In this document: positions 23,698 to 64,000 of the stretch, in pieces
Position numbering within the stretch: position 1 is the first letter of the stretch
How the letters are laid out: each line of letters opens with the position of its first letter
Source of the DNA: Pseudomonas frederiksbergensis
GTDB taxonomy: Bacteria; Pseudomonadota; Gammaproteobacteria; Pseudomonadales; Pseudomonadaceae
Length of the DNA: 64,000 nt
Reading direction: 5' to 3'
Assembly (NCBI RefSeq): GCF_035751725.1
Contig: NZ_CP142104.1
Location: forward strand, 2,480,001-2,544,000
The notes under the pieces: generated by a model
What the model was told of the DNA's origin: nothing
The model's database searches: none
Seen by the model: the letters and a program-made list of their open reading frames with translations, nothing else
Program-made: the position numbers and the translations under genes

Positions 23698-23740
23698 TTG
23701 ATTTCAATCAAGGGCCCAGGCCAGGGGCGGGTCGCAGAAT
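23698..23740 (+). promoter_or_regulatory. nosR promoter with perfect DNR/ANR box
   Basis: TTGAT-TTCA-ATCAA at 23698-23711 is a perfect FNR-type palindrome. A -10 like sequence (CAGAAT, 23735-23740) places a class II start near 23746, about 30 bp before the nosR ATG. Known nos promoters in pseudomonads are activated by DNR in response to NO. The rest of the uvrA2-nosR gap (23463-23697) shows nothing more. Confidence 0.88.
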
Positions 23741-23775: not shown

Positions 23776-25941
23776 ATGACCCGTCCCGTTGCGATGCTGC
23801 ACCCATTCCGTTCCTGGATTCCCGGGCTGTTCCTTCTACTGCTGATGTTCGCCGCCATCGTCCAGGCCAAGGACTACGGTGAAGTCCAGCAACAGCGCAT
23901 CCACCATGTCCTGGGCCCCGTCGATTCGATTTCCGAGCCCGAAGGCCCGTTCAAGGTTCGCAAACTCTCCGCCGCCGGCAAGGTCTTGGGCTACGTGTTC
24001 CAGAGCCTGGACGTGGTGGACATTCCGGCGTATTCGGGCAAGCCGATCAACGTCCAGGTCATTCTCGACCCTGCCGGTGTGATCCTCGATGCCTACGTAC
24101 TGAAGCACCACGAACCGATCCTGCTGATCGGCATCGCCGAAGAAAAGCTCCACGCCTTCAGCGCTCGATACAGCGGCATCAAGGTCAACCAACGGGTGGT
24201 GGTGGGGCATTCCAGCGACCCGAATGCGGTGACAGTCGACGCGATCGCCGGCGCCACGGTGACGGCCATGGTGGTCAACGAAGTCATCATGCGCGCCGCC
24301 CATGACGTCGCGGTGTCCCTGGGCCTGGTCAAGGGCGATGCCGGATTGGCCGTGGCGCCGGCCCGCGTACGGGACGATTTCTACCAGCCTGCCGATTGGG
24401 CCACGCTGACGGGCAACGGCGCTGTCCGTCGCCTGCACCTGACCCGAGGGGAGGTCGACGCCTCGTTCAAAGGCACCGAAGCCGAACAGGTCGAAACCGC
24501 CAGCGACGAGCAGGTGGACGACACCTTCATCGATCTCTACGTCACCCACCTCAACCCGCCCACCATCGGCCGCAATCTGCTGGGCGAGACGCAATACCGC
24601 GCGCTGATGGCCGAACTCAAGCCAGGCGAACAGGCGATCGCGGTGATGGGCAGCGGCCGTTATTCATTCAAGGGTTCGGGCTACGTGCGCGGAGGGATTT
24701 TCGACCGGGTGCAACTGCGCCAATCCGGCGACACCATCAGCTTCCGCGACCTGGATTTCCAACGCCTGGATGACGTCGCCGCCGACATGCCGGACTTCGA
24801 CGAAATGGCGATCTTCACGATCCGCGCCTCCCATCGCTTCGACCCTGGCGCGCCGTGGAGCCTGGAACTGTTGGTGCGGCGCCAGACCGGCCCGGTCAGC
24901 GGCACATTCAGCAGTTTCGAACTCGGCTACCAACTGCCCGAGCTCTACCTCGAGCGACCTTTGCCGACGGCCGAGCAACTGGCGGCGGCCGAAGAAGCCA
25001 GCCGGCCGATGTGGCTGACCCTCTGGTACCAGAAAAGCGTCGAAATCGGCGTGCTCGGCGCGGCGTTGCTGGTACTGACGGCGATCCTGTTTTTCCAGGA
25101 CTCACTGGCCCGACGGCCAACGCTGCTGCACTGGGTTCGCCGTGGATATCTGGTGTTCACCGTGGTGTTTCTCGGTGGCGTCGCGCTGGCGCAGTTGTCG
25201 GTGGTCAACGTGTTGACCTTTGTCCACGCGTTGTTCGAGGGCTTTCGCTGGGAGCTGTTTCTCACCGACCCGCTGATCTTCATTCTCTGGGTGTTCACCG
25301 CCGCCAGTATCCTGCTCTGGGGGCGCGGGGTGTTCTGTGGCTGGCTGTGCCCGTTCGGCGCGCTGCAGGAATTGATCAACGAGCTGGCACGCAAGCTCAA
25401 GGTGCCGCAATACGAATTGCCGTTCGCCGTTCATGAGCGGCTGTGGGCGATCAAGTACATCATTTTGCTGGGGCTGTTCGGCGTCTCGCTGGAGTCAATG
25501 GCCACCGCCGAACGGCTCGCCGAGGTGGAGCCATTCAAGACCGCCATCACCCTCAAGTTCGACCGCCAATGGTGGTTCGTCGCCTACGCGGTGGGCCTGC
25601 TGGTGATCAACGTGTTCACCCGCAAAGTCTATTGCCGCTACGTCTGCCCGCTGGGCGCAGCCTTGGCGATGCCAACCCGGCTGCGCCTGTTCGACTGGCT
25701 CAAGCGCCGCAAGGAGTGCGGTAACCCGTGCCAACTGTGCGCCAAGGAATGCGAGATCCAGGCGATTCACCCCGATGGCCGGATCAATGCCAACGAATGC
25801 CATTACTGCCTCGACTGCCAGATGACCTGGCACAACGAAAACAAATGCCCGCCCTTGATCAACAAGCGCAAGAAGCGTGGCAAGCCAACCCCGTCCGACC
25901 CGCAACGAATCCCGGTGGTGCAGGTGGAGCTGACGCCTTGA
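23776..25941 (+). CDS. nosR: NosR, flavin/iron-sulfur membrane protein for N2O reduction
   Basis: 721 aa. An N-terminal signal/anchor is followed by a periplasmic FMN-binding domain with the flavinylation-type motif DAIAGATVT (155-163), then a second periplasmic region. Several membrane helices (about 415-620) with two polyferredoxin motifs, CGWLCPFGA and CRYVCPLGA, come next. A C-terminal cytoplasmic ferredoxin region with CGNPCQLCAKECE and CHYCLDCQ ends the protein. NosR is needed for nosZ expression and for electron delivery to NosZ. The Ser of the classical SGAT flavinylation motif is Ala here. No apbE/nosX flavin transferase is found in the window, so flavinylation would need one encoded elsewhere. 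First gene of nosRZDFYL. Confidence 0.95.
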   Translation: MTRPVAMLHPFRSWIPGLFLLLLMFAAIVQAKDYGEVQQQRIHHVLGPVDSISEPEGPFKVRKLSAAGKVLGYVFQSLDVVDIPAYSGKPINVQVILDPAGVILDAYVLKHHEPILLIGIAEEKLHAFSARYSGIKVNQRVVVGHSSDPNAVTVDAIAGATVTAMVVNEVIMRAAHDVAVSLGLVKGDAGLAVAPARVRDDFYQPADWATLTGNGAVRRLHLTRGEVDASFKGTEAEQVETASDEQVDDTFIDLYVTHLNPPTIGRNLLGETQYRALMAELKPGEQAIAVMGSGRYSFKGSGYVRGGIFDRVQLRQSGDTISFRDLDFQRLDDVAADMPDFDEMAIFTIRASHRFDPGAPWSLELLVRRQTGPVSGTFSSFELGYQLPELYLERPLPTAEQLAAAEEASRPMWLTLWYQKSVEIGVLGAALLVLTAILFFQDSLARRPTLLHWVRRGYLVFTVVFLGGVALAQLSVVNVLTFVHALFEGFRWELFLTDPLIFILWVFTAASILLWGRGVFCGWLCPFGALQELINELARKLKVPQYELPFAVHERLWAIKYIILLGLFGVSLESMATAERLAEVEPFKTAITLKFDRQWWFVAYAVGLLVINVFTRKVYCRYVCPLGAALAMPTRLRLFDWLKRRKECGNPCQLCAKECEIQAIHPDGRINANECHYCLDCQMTWHNENKCPPLINKRKKRGKPTPSDPQRIPVVQVELTP

Positions 25942-45787: not shown

Positions 45788-45830
45788 TTGATCGCCATCA
45801 AGCGGTTCCGAACCCCTCGCTTTCTAGAAT
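45788..45830 (+). promoter_or_regulatory. norCB promoter with perfect DNR box
   Basis: TTGAT-CGCC-ATCAA at 45788-45801 is a perfect FNR-type palindrome. TAGAAT at 45825-45830 is a very good -10, and the spacing gives a class II start near 45836, 23 bp before norC. The layout is that of a DNR-activated promoter. The rest of 45563-45787 shows no gene. Confidence 0.92.
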
Positions 45831-49648: not shown

Positions 49649-49849
49649 TCAGGCGATGCTGCGCGGAAGCCAGAAGAACATGACGATGCAGAAGATCGTC
49701 AAGCCGACGCAGAACCAGGTGAAGCGTCGCAGCCGGCGCTCACCGGCGAGTGCCGCCTCCGCCGGCAAGAGCATGCCGCAGCGGCGACACTCGCTTGCAG
49801 CGACGGCGTTGACCTGTTGGCAGTACAGGCAAACGGGCTGCGCACTCAT
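49649..49849 (-). CDS. dnrP: DnrP-like zinc-ribbon membrane protein
   Basis: 66 aa. Two CxxC pairs in the first third (CLYC and CRRC) form a short zinc ribbon, and a single C-terminal membrane helix (WFCVGLTIFCIVMFFWL) follows. It overlaps dnr by four bases and lies downstream of it on the same strand, so it is co-expressed with the regulator. Small proteins of this kind next to dnr are called DnrP in Pseudomonas; role unknown. Confidence 0.8.
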   Translation of the reverse strand: MSAQPVCLYCQQVNAVAASECRRCGMLLPAEAALAGERRLRRFTWFCVGLTIFCIVMFFWLPRSIA

Positions 49850-50529
49850 TCGAACTGCTCCAGGCGCGGGCGGTCGAGAATGGCAATCTGACGACCGTCC
49901 TGGGTGATGATCTTTTCATCGATCAGGCGGCGGATGATCCGCGAGAAAGTTTCGGGTTGGATCGACAGATGCCCGGCGATCAACTGCTTGGCCATCGGCA
50001 ACTCGAACTGGCTGTCGACGGTTTGCAGGCGTACCAGTTGCGTCAGCAAGTAGCGCACCACGCGGTGGGTGGCGTTCTTCAGCGACAGGGTTTCGATCTC
50101 GTTGACCCGCTGATGCAGGCGCACGCAGAGCTTGCCGAGCAGGGCGAAAGTCAGTCGGCTGTTACTCTGCAAAAGGCGCATGTACGTGGCGTTGGATAGC
50201 CGATATATCTGGGTTGGGCCGACGGCTTCGGCGGACGCGACGTAGTTGGGTGTGTCCATCAGCATCATGGCTTCGGCGAAGGTCTGGCGCTCGCCGATCA
50301 CTTCGAAGACTTTCTCCTGGCCGTCCGGGGTCAACCGATAGATTTTCACCGCCCCGGATATCACGAAGTAGAACGCCTGCGCCGGTTCGCCCTGGCGGAA
50401 CAGCGGATCGCCCCTGTCGATGTTCAGCAATTGGCTGTGGCTCATCAACTCATCGAGCTGTTCTTCGTTCAGGGGCTCGAACAGGTGATGGCTGCGCAGA
50501 ATCTGGTGATGGACACGGTGGAGCACCAT
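49846..50529 (-). CDS. dnr: DNR, NO-responsive Crp/Fnr-family regulator
   Basis: 227 aa from ATG 50529 with AAGGA upstream. N-terminal cyclic-nucleotide-binding-like heme domain, long dimer helix and C-terminal winged helix with recognition sequence LSIQPETFSRIIRRL. The N-terminal cysteines of ANR/FNR are absent, so it belongs to the DNR class that binds heme and senses NO. The E..SR pattern explains recognition of TTGAT-N4-ATCAA, the boxes found here before nos, nir, nor and ubi genes. No such box was found upstream of dnr itself; instead a sigma54 promoter and NorR-type sites lie there. Confidence 0.95.
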   Translation of the reverse strand: MVLHRVHHQILRSHHLFEPLNEEQLDELMSHSQLLNIDRGDPLFRQGEPAQAFYFVISGAVKIYRLTPDGQEKVFEVIGERQTFAEAMMLMDTPNYVASAEAVGPTQIYRLSNATYMRLLQSNSRLTFALLGKLCVRLHQRVNEIETLSLKNATHRVVRYLLTQLVRLQTVDSQFELPMAKQLIAGHLSIQPETFSRIIRRLIDEKIITQDGRQIAILDRPRLEQFE

Positions 50530-50566: not shown

Positions 50567-50656
50567 TCAGACCAGGCTCAGGGACAGGCCGCTGGCAAGC
50601 GCCAGGATGCCGGTGAGCACAACGAACCAGGTGAGCGGCAGGACGACGGATTTCAT
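50567..50656 (-). CDS. Putative 29-aa membrane microprotein upstream of dnr
   Basis: An ATG at 50656 opens a 29-codon frame ending at 50567, starting MKSVVLPLTWFVVLTGILAL and continuing ASGLSLSLV. It is one hydrophobic helix after a Lys. The Shine-Dalgarno is weak. It begins about 26 bp after the predicted sigma54 transcription start and ends 37 bp before dnr. It might be a real microprotein, a leader for dnr or chance. Confidence 0.45.
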   Translation of the reverse strand: MKSVVLPLTWFVVLTGILALASGLSLSLV

Positions 50657-50693
50657 GGGTGACCCCGGAAGTGGAATGTGATGCCGTGCTTGA

Positions 50694-50708
50694 GCAAGAG
50701 CCGGGCCA
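50694..50708 (-). promoter_or_regulatory. Sigma54 promoter reading toward the microprotein and dnr
   Basis: On the minus strand the sequence is TGGCCCG-GCTC-TTGCT, against the consensus TGGCACG-N4-TTGCA. GG and GC are exactly ten bases apart. The predicted start is near 50682. It lies 50 bp from the nearest of three NorR-type sites. Confidence 0.75.
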
Positions 50709-50749
50709 TGCCTGGAGACGTTGAAAGGCGGGGTGTTGGGGCTGGGGAG

Positions 50750-50807
50750 GGTAGAAATGACCCTGGTGTTTCAGGGTAAAAACAACCATGCAAGGGTTAT
50801 GGATACC
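50750..50807. promoter_or_regulatory. Array of three NorR-type GGT-N7-ACC sites
   Basis: GGTAGAAATGACC (50750-50762), GGTAAAAACAACC (50775-50787) and GGTTATGGATACC (50795-50807) are three exact GGT-N7-ACC matches, with centres 25 and 20 bp apart. Three such sites are the known arrangement for NorR enhancers in Ralstonia and E. coli. The array lies between the dnr-side sigma54 promoter and nnrS. Confidence 0.8.
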
Positions 50808-50942: not shown

Positions 50943-50959
50943 TCGGCAAGCCCCTTGCA
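50943..50959 (+). promoter_or_regulatory. Candidate sigma54 promoter for nnrS
   Basis: TCGGCAAG-CCCC-TTGCA keeps GG and GC ten bases apart, with two or three mismatches in the -24 element. The predicted start is near 50970, 125 bp before the nnrS ATG. It is weaker than the two minus-strand sigma54 promoters. The NorR-type array is about 140-195 bp upstream, a workable enhancer distance. Confidence 0.5.
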
Positions 50960-51094: not shown

Positions 51095-52285
51095 ATGCAA
51101 GTGCTTGACCGTCGCAAGGCCATGGCCATCCCGCCGTTGTGGCGCCTGGCGTTCCGACCGTTTTTCCTGGGCGGCTGCCTGCTCGCGCTGTTGGTGGTGC
51201 CGCTGTGGCTGGCGGTGTTCAGCGGACGGTTGTCCGGCTGGCAGCCGGCTGGAGGCTGGCTGGCCTGGCACCGTCATGAATTGTTGTTCGGTTTCGGCCT
51301 GGCGATCATCGCCGGGTTTCTGCTCACGGCGGTACAGACCTGGACGGGTAGCCCGGGCGTCAGTGGCAAGCGACTGGCAGCGCTGGCGTTGGTGTGGCTG
51401 GGGGCGCGACTGGCCTGGCTGATCGACGCACCATTGCCATTGCTGGCGGTCCTTGAGCTGGCTTTCGCCTTGGGCGTCGCCGCGTTGATGGGCCTGACGT
51501 TATGGCGCGTGCGGCAGAAACGCAATTATCCGATCGTGCTGGTCTTGCTGTTGTTGGCCGCGGCCGACGGCTTGTCCGTGTATGGCCTGCTCCAGGGCAA
51601 CGAGGGCCTGCAACGGCAAAGCGTGCTCACCGGCCTCTGGCTGGTGGCGGCGATGATGGGATTGATCGGCGGGCGCGTGATTCCGTTCTTCACCCAGCGC
51701 GGCCTCGGTCGCGTGGAAGGCGTGGCGCCGTGGCCGTGGCTCGATCGCTTGTTGCTGGCAGGATCGGCGCTGGTGGCGCTGTTGTACGCCTTCGGTCCGG
51801 CGCTGGCGCCCAGCCTCTGGGTTGGCCTGTTGTTCGCCGCGTTGGCGGTGGGGCACGGGATTCGACTGGTGCGTTGGCATGACCGAGGATTATGGCGAGT
51901 GCCGCTGCTGTGGTCGTTGCACTTGGCCTATGCTTGGCTGGCAGTGGCGTGCCTGGGCATGGCGCTGTGGCACCTCGGCGTGCCGGTGAACCCGAGCCTG
52001 GCGGTGCACAGCCTGACCATCGGCGCCATGGCCGGGTTGATCCTGGCGATGATCGCCCGCGTCAGCCTGGGCCATACCGGGCGCGCGCTCGACCCACCGG
52101 CGGGGATGACCCTGGCGTTCATCCTGTTGAACCTGGCGTGCCTGAGCCGCGTGCTGTTGGTGCTGCTGTTACCGTTGACCGGGCTCTGGCTGGCGGGCGT
52201 GTGCTGGACGCTGGCGTTCGGTCTGTACGCCTGGCGCTATGGGCCGATGCTGCTCAAGGCCCGGGTGGATGGACATCCGGGATGA
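51095..52285 (+). CDS. nnrS: NnrS family heme-copper membrane protein
   Basis: 396 aa from ATG 51095 (AAAGGAG upstream). About twelve hydrophobic segments and conserved NnrS features: PLWRLAFRPFFLGG at the start, WHRHELLFGF, GRVIPFFTQRGL, SLHLAYAWLAV, HSLTIGAMAGLILAMIARVSLGHTGR. NnrS proteins protect against NO-derived nitrosative stress and are controlled by NO sensors in many bacteria. The gene is followed after 25 bp by a CopD-like gene, probably in one operon. Confidence 0.93.
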   Translation: MQVLDRRKAMAIPPLWRLAFRPFFLGGCLLALLVVPLWLAVFSGRLSGWQPAGGWLAWHRHELLFGFGLAIIAGFLLTAVQTWTGSPGVSGKRLAALALVWLGARLAWLIDAPLPLLAVLELAFALGVAALMGLTLWRVRQKRNYPIVLVLLLLAAADGLSVYGLLQGNEGLQRQSVLTGLWLVAAMMGLIGGRVIPFFTQRGLGRVEGVAPWPWLDRLLLAGSALVALLYAFGPALAPSLWVGLLFAALAVGHGIRLVRWHDRGLWRVPLLWSLHLAYAWLAVACLGMALWHLGVPVNPSLAVHSLTIGAMAGLILAMIARVSLGHTGRALDPPAGMTLAFILLNLACLSRVLLVLLLPLTGLWLAGVCWTLAFGLYAWRYGPMLLKARVDGHPG

Positions 52286-52814: not shown

Positions 52815-53492
52815 TTAACGGGCCGCCTTCATCGCATTGACGAACAACACATTGTTTTCCAGGTGAATGTGCTGCATCAGGTCGTCCCGCAGCTCCACCA
52901 GTCCGCGATACAGGGCGCGCCAGGTGTTGCAGGCGTCAGCGGGCGGGGTGATCTGGTCAGTCAGGGCGAGCATGGTTTCCAGCGCTTCGCCGTGCTGGTC
53001 ATGTTCGTAGCGAAGCACCTGGATCGGCGCCGAGGCGCGTTCGCCCAGGCCCTGTTGCAGCATTGGGAACAGCACTTGTTCTTCCTTGAGCATGTGGCCT
53101 TCGAGTTCCTGGTACATGTCCTGCAGATGATCGGCCAGGCCGTTGGGGCAACTGGCGCGTGCGCCATGGACCGTTTCGACCCGACGGGCCAGGCGGATCA
53201 GTTCCGGCAGTTGTTCGCGATGGCGGGCGTGGTAGCGTTCGAGGATGTGGCTGATCAACAATGCCTGGGGTTCATCGCGCCAATCATGGCCGCGCTCGCC
53301 AGCGGCTTGCAGGGTGCGCAGGGCATCGGCGATCAGCAACGGGTTCAGGCCCTTGCCCAGCGCCGCTTCGCGCAAGGACTTTTGTCCGCCGCAACAGAAA
53401 TCGAGGTTGTAATGATGGAAGGTCCGGGTGGCACCGGGAATGTCGCAGGCCAGTTGGCCGAGGCTTTGTTCAAGCAGGTCGAGGCTCATCAT
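52815..53492 (-). CDS. dnrN: Di-iron repair of iron centres protein (YtfE/DnrN/NorA)
   Basis: 225 aa. It starts at ATG 53492 or 53489; AAGGA fits the latter slightly better. An N-terminal ScdA-type domain (about 1-60) with HHYNLDFCCGG is followed by a hemerythrin-like four-helix bundle with the His/Glu ligands (ISHILERYHARH, GHMLKEEQVLFP, YEHDQHGEALE, HIHLENNVLF). It repairs iron-sulfur centres damaged by NO and handles NO in the cytoplasm. Divergent from norR, it has a sigma54 promoter and three NorR-type sites in the shared intergenic region, the classical NorR regulon layout. Confidence 0.93.
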   Translation of the reverse strand: MMSLDLLEQSLGQLACDIPGATRTFHHYNLDFCCGGQKSLREAALGKGLNPLLIADALRTLQAAGERGHDWRDEPQALLISHILERYHARHREQLPELIRLARRVETVHGARASCPNGLADHLQDMYQELEGHMLKEEQVLFPMLQQGLGERASAPIQVLRYEHDQHGEALETMLALTDQITPPADACNTWRALYRGLVELRDDLMQHIHLENNVLFVNAMKAAR

Positions 53493-53537: not shown

Positions 53538-53554
53538 TGCAGTCGGCATGCCAG
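53538..53554 (-). promoter_or_regulatory. Sigma54 promoter of the ytfE/dnrN gene
   Basis: On the minus strand the sequence is CTGGCATG-CCGA-CTGCA, with GG and GC exactly ten bases apart. The predicted start is near 53526, 34 bp before the gene. The nearest NorR-type site is centred about 48 bp upstream of the -24 element. Confidence 0.82.
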
Positions 53555-53593: not shown

Positions 53594-53650
53594 GGTGATT
53601 GTCACCCTGGTTGCGAAGGGTCAAACGAACCCTGGAGGGTCACCACTACC
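53594..53650. promoter_or_regulatory. Array of three NorR-type GGT-N7-ACC sites
   Basis: GGTGATTGTCACC (53594-53606, inside the 21-bp palindrome 53590-53610), GGTCAAACGAACC (53619-53631) and GGTCACCACTACC (53638-53650). Centres are 25 and 19 bp apart. The last site touches the norR start codon, so binding may also repress norR. Confidence 0.85.
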
Positions 53651-55171
53651 ATGCTGCGTGAAAGCCTGGCCGCCGACCTGATCGTCGAGCTGCCCAATGC
53701 GGTGCGATTGCAGCGCCTGGTGCAGACCCTGCGCGAATACTTCAACAGTGGCGCCGTCGGCTTGCTGCGCCTGGACGATGACAGCCTCAGGCCCGTGGCG
53801 ACCGTGGGCCTGGTCCACGAGGCGCTGGGCCGGCGCTTCGTGATTGCCCAGCACCCGCGCCTGGCGGCGATCATGGCCTCGCGCGAACCGACCTGGTTCG
53901 AGCCGGACAGCCGCTTGCCGGATCCGTATGACGGCTTGCTCGATCACCACGTCGGCGAGCCGCTGCCGGTGCATGACTGCATGGGCGTGAGCCTGTACGT
54001 GGAAGGCCGGCTCTGGGGCGCGATCACCCTGGATGCCTTGCACGCCGGCACCTTCGACGGCCGCGCCCGGGAGGAACTCAAGCGTTGCACGTTGCAGATC
54101 GAGGCGGCGGTGCGGGTCACGCGATTGGAGCAGGAGAATCGCAGCCTGCGGGCGTCACGCAGTGACCCGGCGGACCTGCGCCTGCCGACCGAGGAGGGCG
54201 AAATCATCGGGCGCAGCGAGGGTTTGCAGCAATTGCTCAATGAGCTGGATGTCTTGGCTGATTCGGAACTGCCGGTGCTGTTGCTGGGCGAGACTGGGGT
54301 GGGCAAGGAGTTGTTCGCTCGGCGGCTGCATCGGTTGTCCCGGCGTAGTCACAAGCCCTTGGTGCAGGTCAACTGCGCGGCGTTGCCCGAGTCCCTCGCC
54401 GAAAGCGAGTTGTTCGGCCACGTCAAAGGCGCGTTCTCTGGCGCGACGACTGACCGCGCCGGACGCTTCGACGCGGCCAATGGCGGCACGTTGTTTCTCG
54501 ATGAAGTGGGCGAGCTACCGCTGAGCGTGCAGGCCAAATTGTTGCGCACCCTGCAGAACGGTGAGATCCAGCGGCTGGGAGCGGACAAGCCGCTGCACGT
54601 CGATGTGCGGATCATCGCGGCGACCAACCGACACTTGCCCGACAGCATCCGCGACGGGCTGTTTCGCGCCGACCTGTACCACCGGCTGTCGGTCTACCCG
54701 GTGCCGATCCCGCCGCTGCGCGAACGCGGCCACGATGTCTTGATGCTCGCCGGGCATTTCCTCGAACTCAACCGCACGCGATTGGGCTTGCGTGGCTTGC
54801 GCCTGTCTCCGGCCGCCGAACAGGCGCTGTTGGCGTACCACTGGCCGGGCAACGTGCGGGAGCTGGAGCACGTCATCAGTCGCGCGGCGTTGAAAGAGCT
54901 GAGCCGTGGTGCCAGTCGCGGGGTGATCATGACCCTCGAACCGCAGGTGTTGGATCTGGATGTCAGCACCAACGCAGCCGCCATCGACACGCCGGCGCAA
55001 AGCATTGATGCGCCGCTGCGGCCCCTGAGCGTCACGGTGGATGAATGCCAGCGCCAGGCGATCCTCAGGGCCTTGGAACGCTGCGGGCAGAATTGGGCAG
55101 GGGCGGCGCGGTTGTTGGAGATTGATCCGAGCAATTTGCATAAATTGGCGCGGCGGTTGGGGCTCAAGTAG
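53651..55171 (+). CDS. norR: NorR, NO-sensing sigma54-dependent activator
   Basis: 506 aa from ATG 53651; an upstream frame to 53537 crosses the operator and promoter. The N-terminal GAF domain retains all five residues that match the non-heme iron ligands of E. coli NorR: R70, D91, D94 (LPDPYDG), C110 and D128. The central AAA+ domain has Walker A GETGVGKE and the sigma54-contact loop GAFSGA (260-265), a conservative variant of GAFTGA. The C-terminal Fis-type helix-turn-helix ends NLHKLARRLGL. It would activate the divergent dnrN/ytfE and probably the second array near dnr/nnrS in response to NO. Confidence 0.95.
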   Translation: MLRESLAADLIVELPNAVRLQRLVQTLREYFNSGAVGLLRLDDDSLRPVATVGLVHEALGRRFVIAQHPRLAAIMASREPTWFEPDSRLPDPYDGLLDHHVGEPLPVHDCMGVSLYVEGRLWGAITLDALHAGTFDGRAREELKRCTLQIEAAVRVTRLEQENRSLRASRSDPADLRLPTEEGEIIGRSEGLQQLLNELDVLADSELPVLLLGETGVGKELFARRLHRLSRRSHKPLVQVNCAALPESLAESELFGHVKGAFSGATTDRAGRFDAANGGTLFLDEVGELPLSVQAKLLRTLQNGEIQRLGADKPLHVDVRIIAATNRHLPDSIRDGLFRADLYHRLSVYPVPIPPLRERGHDVLMLAGHFLELNRTRLGLRGLRLSPAAEQALLAYHWPGNVRELEHVISRAALKELSRGASRGVIMTLEPQVLDLDVSTNAAAIDTPAQSIDAPLRPLSVTVDECQRQAILRALERCGQNWAGAARLLEIDPSNLHKLARRLGLK

Positions 55172-55202: not shown

Positions 55203-55216
55203 TTGATAACGATCAA
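55203..55216 (+). promoter_or_regulatory. Perfect ANR/DNR box upstream of the pdxH-moa-moe-ubi operon
   Basis: TTGAT-AACG-ATCAA matches the consensus at all positions. Its centre is 63 bp before the pdxH ATG (55273), giving a class II start near 55251. No other FNR-type box was found before moaB or ubiU, so this is probably the promoter for the whole run up to ubiT. Confidence 0.87.
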
Positions 55217-55272
55217 GGCCTCCCATCCCAGGCGACTCCACACTGGCCCAAACCCAAGTGGAGATCACCGTC

Positions 55273-63957: not shown

Positions 63958-64000
63958 TCAGCCACCTGCCACTGCGTTGATCAGGATCAATTGCGCATTG
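63958..64000 (-). CDS. MoaD/ThiS-like sulfur carrier, C-terminal part only
   Basis: The frame entering from the right edge on the minus strand ends ...NAQLILINAVAGG-stop (stop at 63958-63960). A C-terminal Val-Ala-Gly-Gly immediately before the stop is the hallmark of MoaD/ThiS-type ubiquitin-like sulfur carriers. The stop lies two bases before the ThiF-like ATG, indicating one operon. The N-terminal part is outside the window. Confidence 0.75.
   Translation of the reverse strand, partial: NAQLILINAVAGG

Follow-up and report, generated by a model that had tools for sequence, protein, structure and literature searches.

The window, by which we mean the whole 64,000-nucleotide stretch of DNA analysed, carries norC, norB, norD, dnr (minus strand), a 29-codon open reading frame (ORF), an intergenic region of about 440 bp and nnrS (plus strand), followed by a small gene, ytfE (minus strand) and norR (plus strand) (Table 1). 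We named norD from its position and its VWA domain. The dnr product shows the Crp/Fnr fold and full-length similarity to P. aeruginosa DNR; its match to the DNR protein in PDB entry 3dkw spans the full length with an E value of 1.6e-94. The norR product consists of a GAF domain, an AAA+ sigma54-interaction domain and a C-terminal HTH, the last assigned by alignment to E. coli NorR. In the same alignment the LPDPYDG, VHxC and TLD stretches of the GAF domain, which we take to hold the iron ligands, are kept. Judged by dnr and norB DNA, the nearest named locus is one labelled P. frederiksbergensis SI8 (L013), and next come loci labelled P. brassicacearum and P. agronomica.

Table 1. Coordinates of genes, predicted regulatory sites and promoters in the window.
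Feature	Position	Strand	Basis or remark
Exact FNR/DNR box before nosR-like gene (23776-25941)	23698..23711		exact match
Exact FNR/DNR box before norCB	45788..45801		exact match; norC, norB reading frames
dnr, Crp/Fnr-type regulator	49846..50529	-	Pfam domains
29-codon ORF, putative one-helix membrane peptide	50567..50656	-	conserved coding sequence
sigma54-type promoter towards small ORF and dnr, TGGCCCGGCTCTTGCT	50693..50708	-	GG-N10-GC, sequence match
NorR-type site, dnr-proximal, GGTAGAAATGACC	50750..50762		exact GGT-N7-ACC; conserved in relatives
NorR-type site, middle, GGTAAAAACAACC	50775..50787		exact GGT-N7-ACC; conserved in relatives
NorR-type site, dnr-distal, GGTTATGGATACC	50795..50807		exact GGT-N7-ACC; conserved in relatives
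sigma54-type promoter towards nnrS, CGGCAAGCCCCTTGCA	50944..50959	+	GG-N10-GC; 151 bp before nnrS start
FNR/DNR-like box beside nnrS, TTGATCTGAGACAA	50997..51010	+	two mismatches, sequence match
nnrS	51095..52285	+	Pfam NnrS, E 1.3e-108
ytfE (dnrN-like), iron-sulfur cluster repair protein	52815..53492	-	NCBIfam NF008221, 327.9 bits, cut-off 254
sigma54-type promoter towards ytfE, TGGCATGCCGACTGCA	53538..53553	-	sequence match
Second NorR-type triple (53594, 53619, 53638)	53594..53650		last site abuts norR start codon
norR	53651..55171	+	Pfam GAF and Sigma54_activat; NCBIfam NF003451, ~690 bits (689.7-690.6), cut-off 476

The small ORF was found in 72 of 81 sequences (the window and 80 named loci), with a length of 29 residues in 61 of the 72. 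Its median pairwise dN/dS is 0.26, and this value together with its wide presence indicates that it is kept as a coding sequence. In L091 its counterpart is the N-terminal start of a 170-residue protein, and L080, L090 and L092 have an ORF of middle length, so that the small ORF looks like what is left of a protein reduced to its membrane anchor. The long form matched no family in Pfam or NCBIfam, and the 29-residue form none in NCBIfam.

Three NorR-type sites lie between the small ORF and nnrS, and the sigma54-type promoter on their dnr side (TGGCCCGGCTCTTGCT) differs by a single base from TGGCACG-N4-TTGCW. The small ORF and dnr are the first reading frames downstream of this promoter, whose position predicts a transcription start near 50682. 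The arrangement resembles that at ytfE: the sites are spaced by about two helical turns, 20 and 25 bp at dnr and 25 and 19 bp at ytfE, and the distance from the centre of the proximal site to the GG element is 49.5 and 48.5 bp, respectively. The earlier note had described these elements, namely three exact sites, a minus-strand sigma54 promoter about 50 bp away, the 29-codon ORF and dnr as the first genes downstream, and a geometry like that at ytfE/dnrN, and we found all of them as described.

We next consider how far these elements recur among relatives. The named-locus sample comprised upstream DNA of the best 80 of 158 dnr loci (n=79, as L048 is too short and was left out), with norR status taken from the loci and, for 22 genomes, from a whole-genome search. 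Among these best 80 of 158, 66 loci have a full-length NorR; at least two exact sites spaced 18-26 bp were found in 65 of the 66, three exact sites in 57 and the dnr-side promoter in 64. None of the 10 loci without NorR has an exact site pair, and their only NorR relative is FhpR, the second NorR-family protein discussed below, at ~52% identity. Sites, spacing and promoter are kept between relatives while the flanking DNA diverges. Of the 65 rows that have the promoter (64 loci and the window), 55 place it at 53-55 bp from the proximal exact site; in L066, L083 and L084 this distance is 216-218 bp instead.

A less selected sample gave a similar picture. In 88 of 398 genomes of the genus dnr was found at E 1e-100; upstream DNA was available for 86 of these, norR status for 77 and both for 76 (G240 ends at the contig). 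Genomes with NorR at 78% identity or more carry an exact pair in 58 of 60 cases and a triple in 54; in one of the 60, G052, the NorR match covers residues 1-439 only. The two exceptions both keep the promoter: G351 also retains three GT-N7-AC sites, of which two deviate by one letter, and in G114 only two GT-N7-AC sites stand at the expected places. An exact pair occurs in 0 of 11 genomes without a NorR match at E 1e-153 (one of which, G004, is by contig coordinates the genome of L087, its GAF-less NorR having fallen below the threshold), in 0 of 4 with NorR at 63-67%, and in the single genome with a GAF-less NorR, where it is placed upstream of dnrN. All 10 relatives without norR status have an exact pair. 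The two samples overlap (G351, for example, is L076) and are therefore not independent. On a tree of 76 rows, from which L025, L034, L046, L074 and L090 were left out for want of a full norB, three changes of norR suffice, and supported branches force them, so the co-occurrence tables overstate the number of independent events. An independent-pair test yielded three pairs, two in the same direction and one tied, and three pairs cannot reach significance, which counts against the link between NorR and dnr. The dnr gene itself occurs in 9 of 38 genomes around that of L068. In keeping with what the earlier note expected of other pseudomonads, close relatives with dnr and nnrS keep the sites and promoter, and the sites track norR.

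The same sites also face a promoter on the other side. The nnrS-side promoter of the window (CGGCAAGCCCCTTGCA) is of a weaker form; a match of at least 10 of 12 positions within 180 bp of the nnrS start was found in all 62 norR-bearing loci that have nnrS versus 0.43 expected from letter shuffles, and a match of 11 of 12 in 34 of the 62 versus 0.04. The distance from this promoter to the nnrS start is 116-178 bp (90 in L070), and that to the dnr-proximal site ranges from 78 to 322 bp; a steady distance to the gene and a variable distance to the sites are as expected of an enhancer. By its layout the predicted three-site enhancer is shared, facing sigma54-type promoters for both dnr and nnrS, a feature that goes beyond the earlier note.

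Could the cluster be accidental, or serve only one of its two neighbours? The window holds 32 single GGT-N7-ACC sites where shuffles predict 14.7, so a single site carries little weight and the cluster is what counts. Exact site pairs, 19 in the 6,001,468-base genome versus 11 for a control pattern, are mildly in excess and by themselves weak evidence. Both figures would fit an accidental cluster in a genome where GGT-N7-ACC is frequent. Against such an origin, pattern searches of the same genome found two triple clusters (dnr-nnrS and ytfE-norR, both in the window) and none for the reversed control pattern; in the 398-genome genus sample a triple cluster occurs in 121 genomes and the forward control pattern in 12 (hand count of rows). 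Since the sites are moreover conserved across species with diverging flanks and track norR, we regard chance as scarcely credible. The promoter motif calls for more caution: sigma54-like matches with two mismatches or fewer are no more frequent in the window than chance predicts (15 versus 16.5 expected), and TGGCCCGGCTCTTGCT, itself one base off consensus, is the only one-mismatch match there. One could argue that the enhancer serves nnrS only, with dnr transcribed from another promoter and the dnr-side motif incidental; no locus of the 62 lacks the nnrS-side promoter, and other bacteria are known to have nnrS under NorR control according to the available part of PMC1274295. However, 64 of the 66 norR-bearing loci have the dnr-side promoter as well, and its usual distance of 53-55 bp from the proximal site varies less than that of the nnrS-side one, and the distant loci L080, L090, L091 and L092, which have no adjacent nnrS, still have sites and promoter before the small ORF and dnr. 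In addition, dnr rises together with nnrS in P. donghuensis P482, as far as the available part of PMC10256816 reports. An enhancer for nnrS alone is accordingly very improbable.

NorR and dnr are connected in other ways in some relatives. The longer small ORF of L080, L090, L091 and L092 is followed by dnr and has two or three exact sites and a promoter upstream. In L047, L053 and L087, a NorR that lacks the GAF domain (the NO-sensing domain), and that might therefore be always active, is encoded beside a short dnrN; a NorR-type triple and a sigma54 promoter lie between the two genes, upstream of dnrN, and the triple is not at dnr's own promoter. We considered whether the short NorR and short YtfE of these loci had arisen by one deletion and rejected this, since the NorR-type sites and promoter lie between them. 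In L047 and L053, the NorR-type triple is followed by dnrN and then dnr, both oriented alike. L166, which belongs to a different genus of the family, has within 652-1500 a NorR-type triple and a sigma54 promoter matching the consensus core ahead of ytfE; dnr starts ~49 bp after ytfE, which makes a ytfE-dnr transcript likely. Of the 25 loci from other genera of the family (groups g15, g16, g4, g12 and g9), none but L166 has a NorR-type cluster upstream of dnr. L279, L280 and L281 each carry an additional NorR-type triple at about 2140-2220, located neither at dnr nor at ytfE, with no clear target gene or promoter at these three loci.

Two proteins encoded in the genome score above the NorR cut-off: the NorR of the window and a second one (778.7 bits) beside hmp, a globin-plus-reductase (flavohaemoglobin) gene. 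We refer to the latter as FhpR after its P. aeruginosa counterpart. The sites near hmp (20 loci, 60 sites) have an inner C..G in 60 of 60 cases and an outer G..C in none, whereas at dnr in other loci (93 triples, 279 sites) the outer G..C is present in 268 of 279 and the inner C..G in 17 of 279. The ytfE-norR sites have the inner C..G in 1 of 174; this set was required to have the outer G..C in two of three sites, which biases the outer column and leaves the inner one unbiased. All three dnr sites of the window have the outer G..C and none has the inner C..G. These letters, being of the dnr/ytfE kind, point to the ytfE-linked NorR rather than FhpR as the regulator.

Regulation of dnr by FhpR, alone or together with NorR, nevertheless deserves weighing, as FhpR is encoded in this genome beside the flavohaemoglobin gene, both paralogues use GT-N7-AC, and FhpR-type letters do occur at dnr in two norR-less species. 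For the present strain we consider it improbable, given the clean separation between the window's letters and those of the hmp sites, and given that two of the three clades without full-length NorR have FhpR-type sites or none, never NorR-type ones, at dnr. The two species are P. chlororaphis PCL1601 (L068) and Pseudomonas sp. Irchel s3h17 (L071). Both lack a NorR orthologue but retain the dnr promoter as well as an nnrS promoter that matches at 11 of 12 positions; the latter lies at 185 bp in L068, beyond the 180-bp counting limit, and at 179 bp in L071. Their three sites keep GT-N7-AC and a spacing of 20/25 and 20/24, and the letters are those of the hmp sites, mostly GTC-N5-GAC: the inner C..G is present in 5 of 6 (Fisher p 1e-5 versus other dnr sites) and the outer G..C in 0 of 6 (p 2e-8), both values treating the sites as independent, which they are not. 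L068 and L071 stand apart on the tree; the sister of L068 there, L076, retains NorR, and its sites are mixed. We infer that FhpR took over the dnr enhancer in L068 and L071. The third loss of norR is in the P. marginalis/cedrina clade, where the eight norR-less loci have neither an nnrS promoter nor a dnr promoter at one mismatch outside the small ORF; the single one-mismatch match, in L037, lies inside the small ORF.

We also asked whether dnr might be controlled through FNR-type boxes. The earlier note had stated that no such box precedes dnr. This holds for boxes with zero or one mismatch, none of which lies between 45801 and 55203; a conserved two-mismatch box (TTGATCTGAGACAA) lies beside nnrS, 468-481 bp upstream of dnr. 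Read on the minus strand as TTGTC-N4-ATCAA, an FNR-like box lies close to nnrS in almost every norR-bearing locus that has this gene; norR-less loci have the box too, and it may provide a second input, of Dnr or ANR type, to nnrS or dnr. As a replacement dnr promoter in norR-less species it was rejected, because norR-bearing loci have it near nnrS too. Exact boxes precede norCB and a gene with Pfam matches to FMN_bind and Fer4_5 only, which we call nosR-like. Two further exact boxes are TTGATAACGATCAA (55203-55216), past the end of norR and ahead of the plus-strand ORF that follows at 55258, and TTGATCAGGATCAA (63977-63990), at the window edge before a minus-strand gene starting near 63965.

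In P. aeruginosa, where dnr likewise encodes an NO-responsive denitrification regulator, low oxygen and nitrate raise dnr through ANR and NarL, as set out in the available part of the review PMC3299288. NorR might thus be a minor input added to a main oxygen- and nitrate-controlled dnr promoter of that kind, and the weak FNR-like box upstream of dnr, which could act on both dnr and nnrS, would fit such a scheme. We think this unlikely. The window has NorR sites and no good FNR box near dnr, and the weak box is close to the nnrS start, which it accompanies when the distance to dnr changes; ANR may have some part all the same. An exact FNR box within 400 bp was found in just one (L156) of the 25 loci from other genera of the family, so the contrast with P. 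aeruginosa rests on what is available of that review.

Expression data for a relative bear on these predictions. P. donghuensis HYS (L079) has the sites and promoter with dnr directly behind; the data are from strain P482 of the same species. According to the available part of PMC10256816, RNA-seq of P482 with tomato exudate gave log2 fold changes of 6.36 for ytfE, 4.99 for nnrS, 3.23 for dnr, 4.2-4.4 for norB/C/D, 6.13 for hmp and -1.67 for norR, and no rise of nir genes. The authors there attributed the response to NO in the exudates and pointed out the gene cluster; NorR control of dnr is not stated in that part of the study. The fall of norR fits autorepression, since the last ytfE-norR site abuts the norR start codon. 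The rise of dnr and nor without nir argues against a full cascade from NO to nir under these conditions, and the extension of the earlier note from NO through NorR and dnr to nir thus found no support in the available P482 data.

Taken together, we consider it likely from the sequence comparisons that NorR and sigma54 control dnr, the core claim of the earlier note, which is supported by the conservation of sites and promoter and by their tracking of norR. In the mechanism we propose, NorR, encoded 3 kb away, would bind the three GGT-N7-ACC sites in the dnr-nnrS intergenic region, sense NO through its GAF domain and activate sigma54 RNA polymerase at a divergent promoter pair that serves the small ORF and dnr on one side, with a predicted start near 50682, and nnrS on the other. 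Dnr, itself NO-responsive, would then act at FNR/DNR boxes such as those before norCB and the nosR-like gene, so that NO would both license Dnr synthesis, via NorR, and activate Dnr. A wider reading, which we put forward only tentatively and as a whole, is that Dnr synthesis is NO-gated through a bidirectional enhancer, that an NO-locked switch is possible, and that loss of NorR was followed by a staged hand-over between regulators. The switch could lock because NO is required by Dnr as well, and Dnr could drive nitrite reductase, which forms NO. In the hand-over, the enhancer would have been lost (P. marginalis/cedrina clade) or re-lettered for FhpR with its spacing kept (PCL1601, Irchel s3h17), the intermediate being the mixed-letter state with NorR still present in Pseudomonas sp. 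NFIX28.

The arrangement is similar to known NorR-family systems. E. coli norVW also has a NorR-family activator, three tandem GT-N7-AC sites (spaced 21/24; here 20/25) and a GG-N10-GC element downstream, but its sites are GTC-N5-GAC rather than GGT-N7-ACC and its target is an NO reductase operon, whereas here a second NO-responsive regulator and nnrS lie on both sides of one enhancer. The FhpR-hmp promoter (own genome and 19 other loci) again combines a NorR-family activator with three tandem sites, but these are GTC-N5-GAC without the outer G..C and are spaced by about 19 and 26. NorR sites have been predicted at norVW, norA/norB, hmp, hcp, dnrN and nnrS (Rodionov et al., 2005, PMC1274295), and the available part of that work describes tandem sites with sigma54 promoters at dnrN, hmp, nnrS and others and, as here, two paralogues (in Vibrio) with different site letters. 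In that part, dnr is not among the NorR targets and no two-way dnr-nnrS enhancer is described. A literature search by title or start of the abstract, with most subscription papers outside it, found no published NorR control of dnr. Promoters of this kind are thus known; what looks new is dnr as the target, the layout with two directions and the change of site letters.

Dnr decides whether a pseudomonad carries out denitrification, and thus its release of NO and N2O. From its sequence, the switch upstream of dnr is conserved in many soil- and plant-associated Pseudomonas and should respond to active NorR, while the model for dnr control comes from P. aeruginosa, in which low oxygen and nitrate raise dnr (PMC3299288, available part). 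Two paralogues with different site letters, and the apparent replacement of one by the other at a single enhancer, make a swap of regulator targets directly testable. If NO does raise dnr via NorR in many fluorescens-type pseudomonads, NO that comes from plants or neighbours could prime NO reductase and possibly denitrification as well, which would fit the response of P. donghuensis to tomato exudate (PMC10256816, available part).
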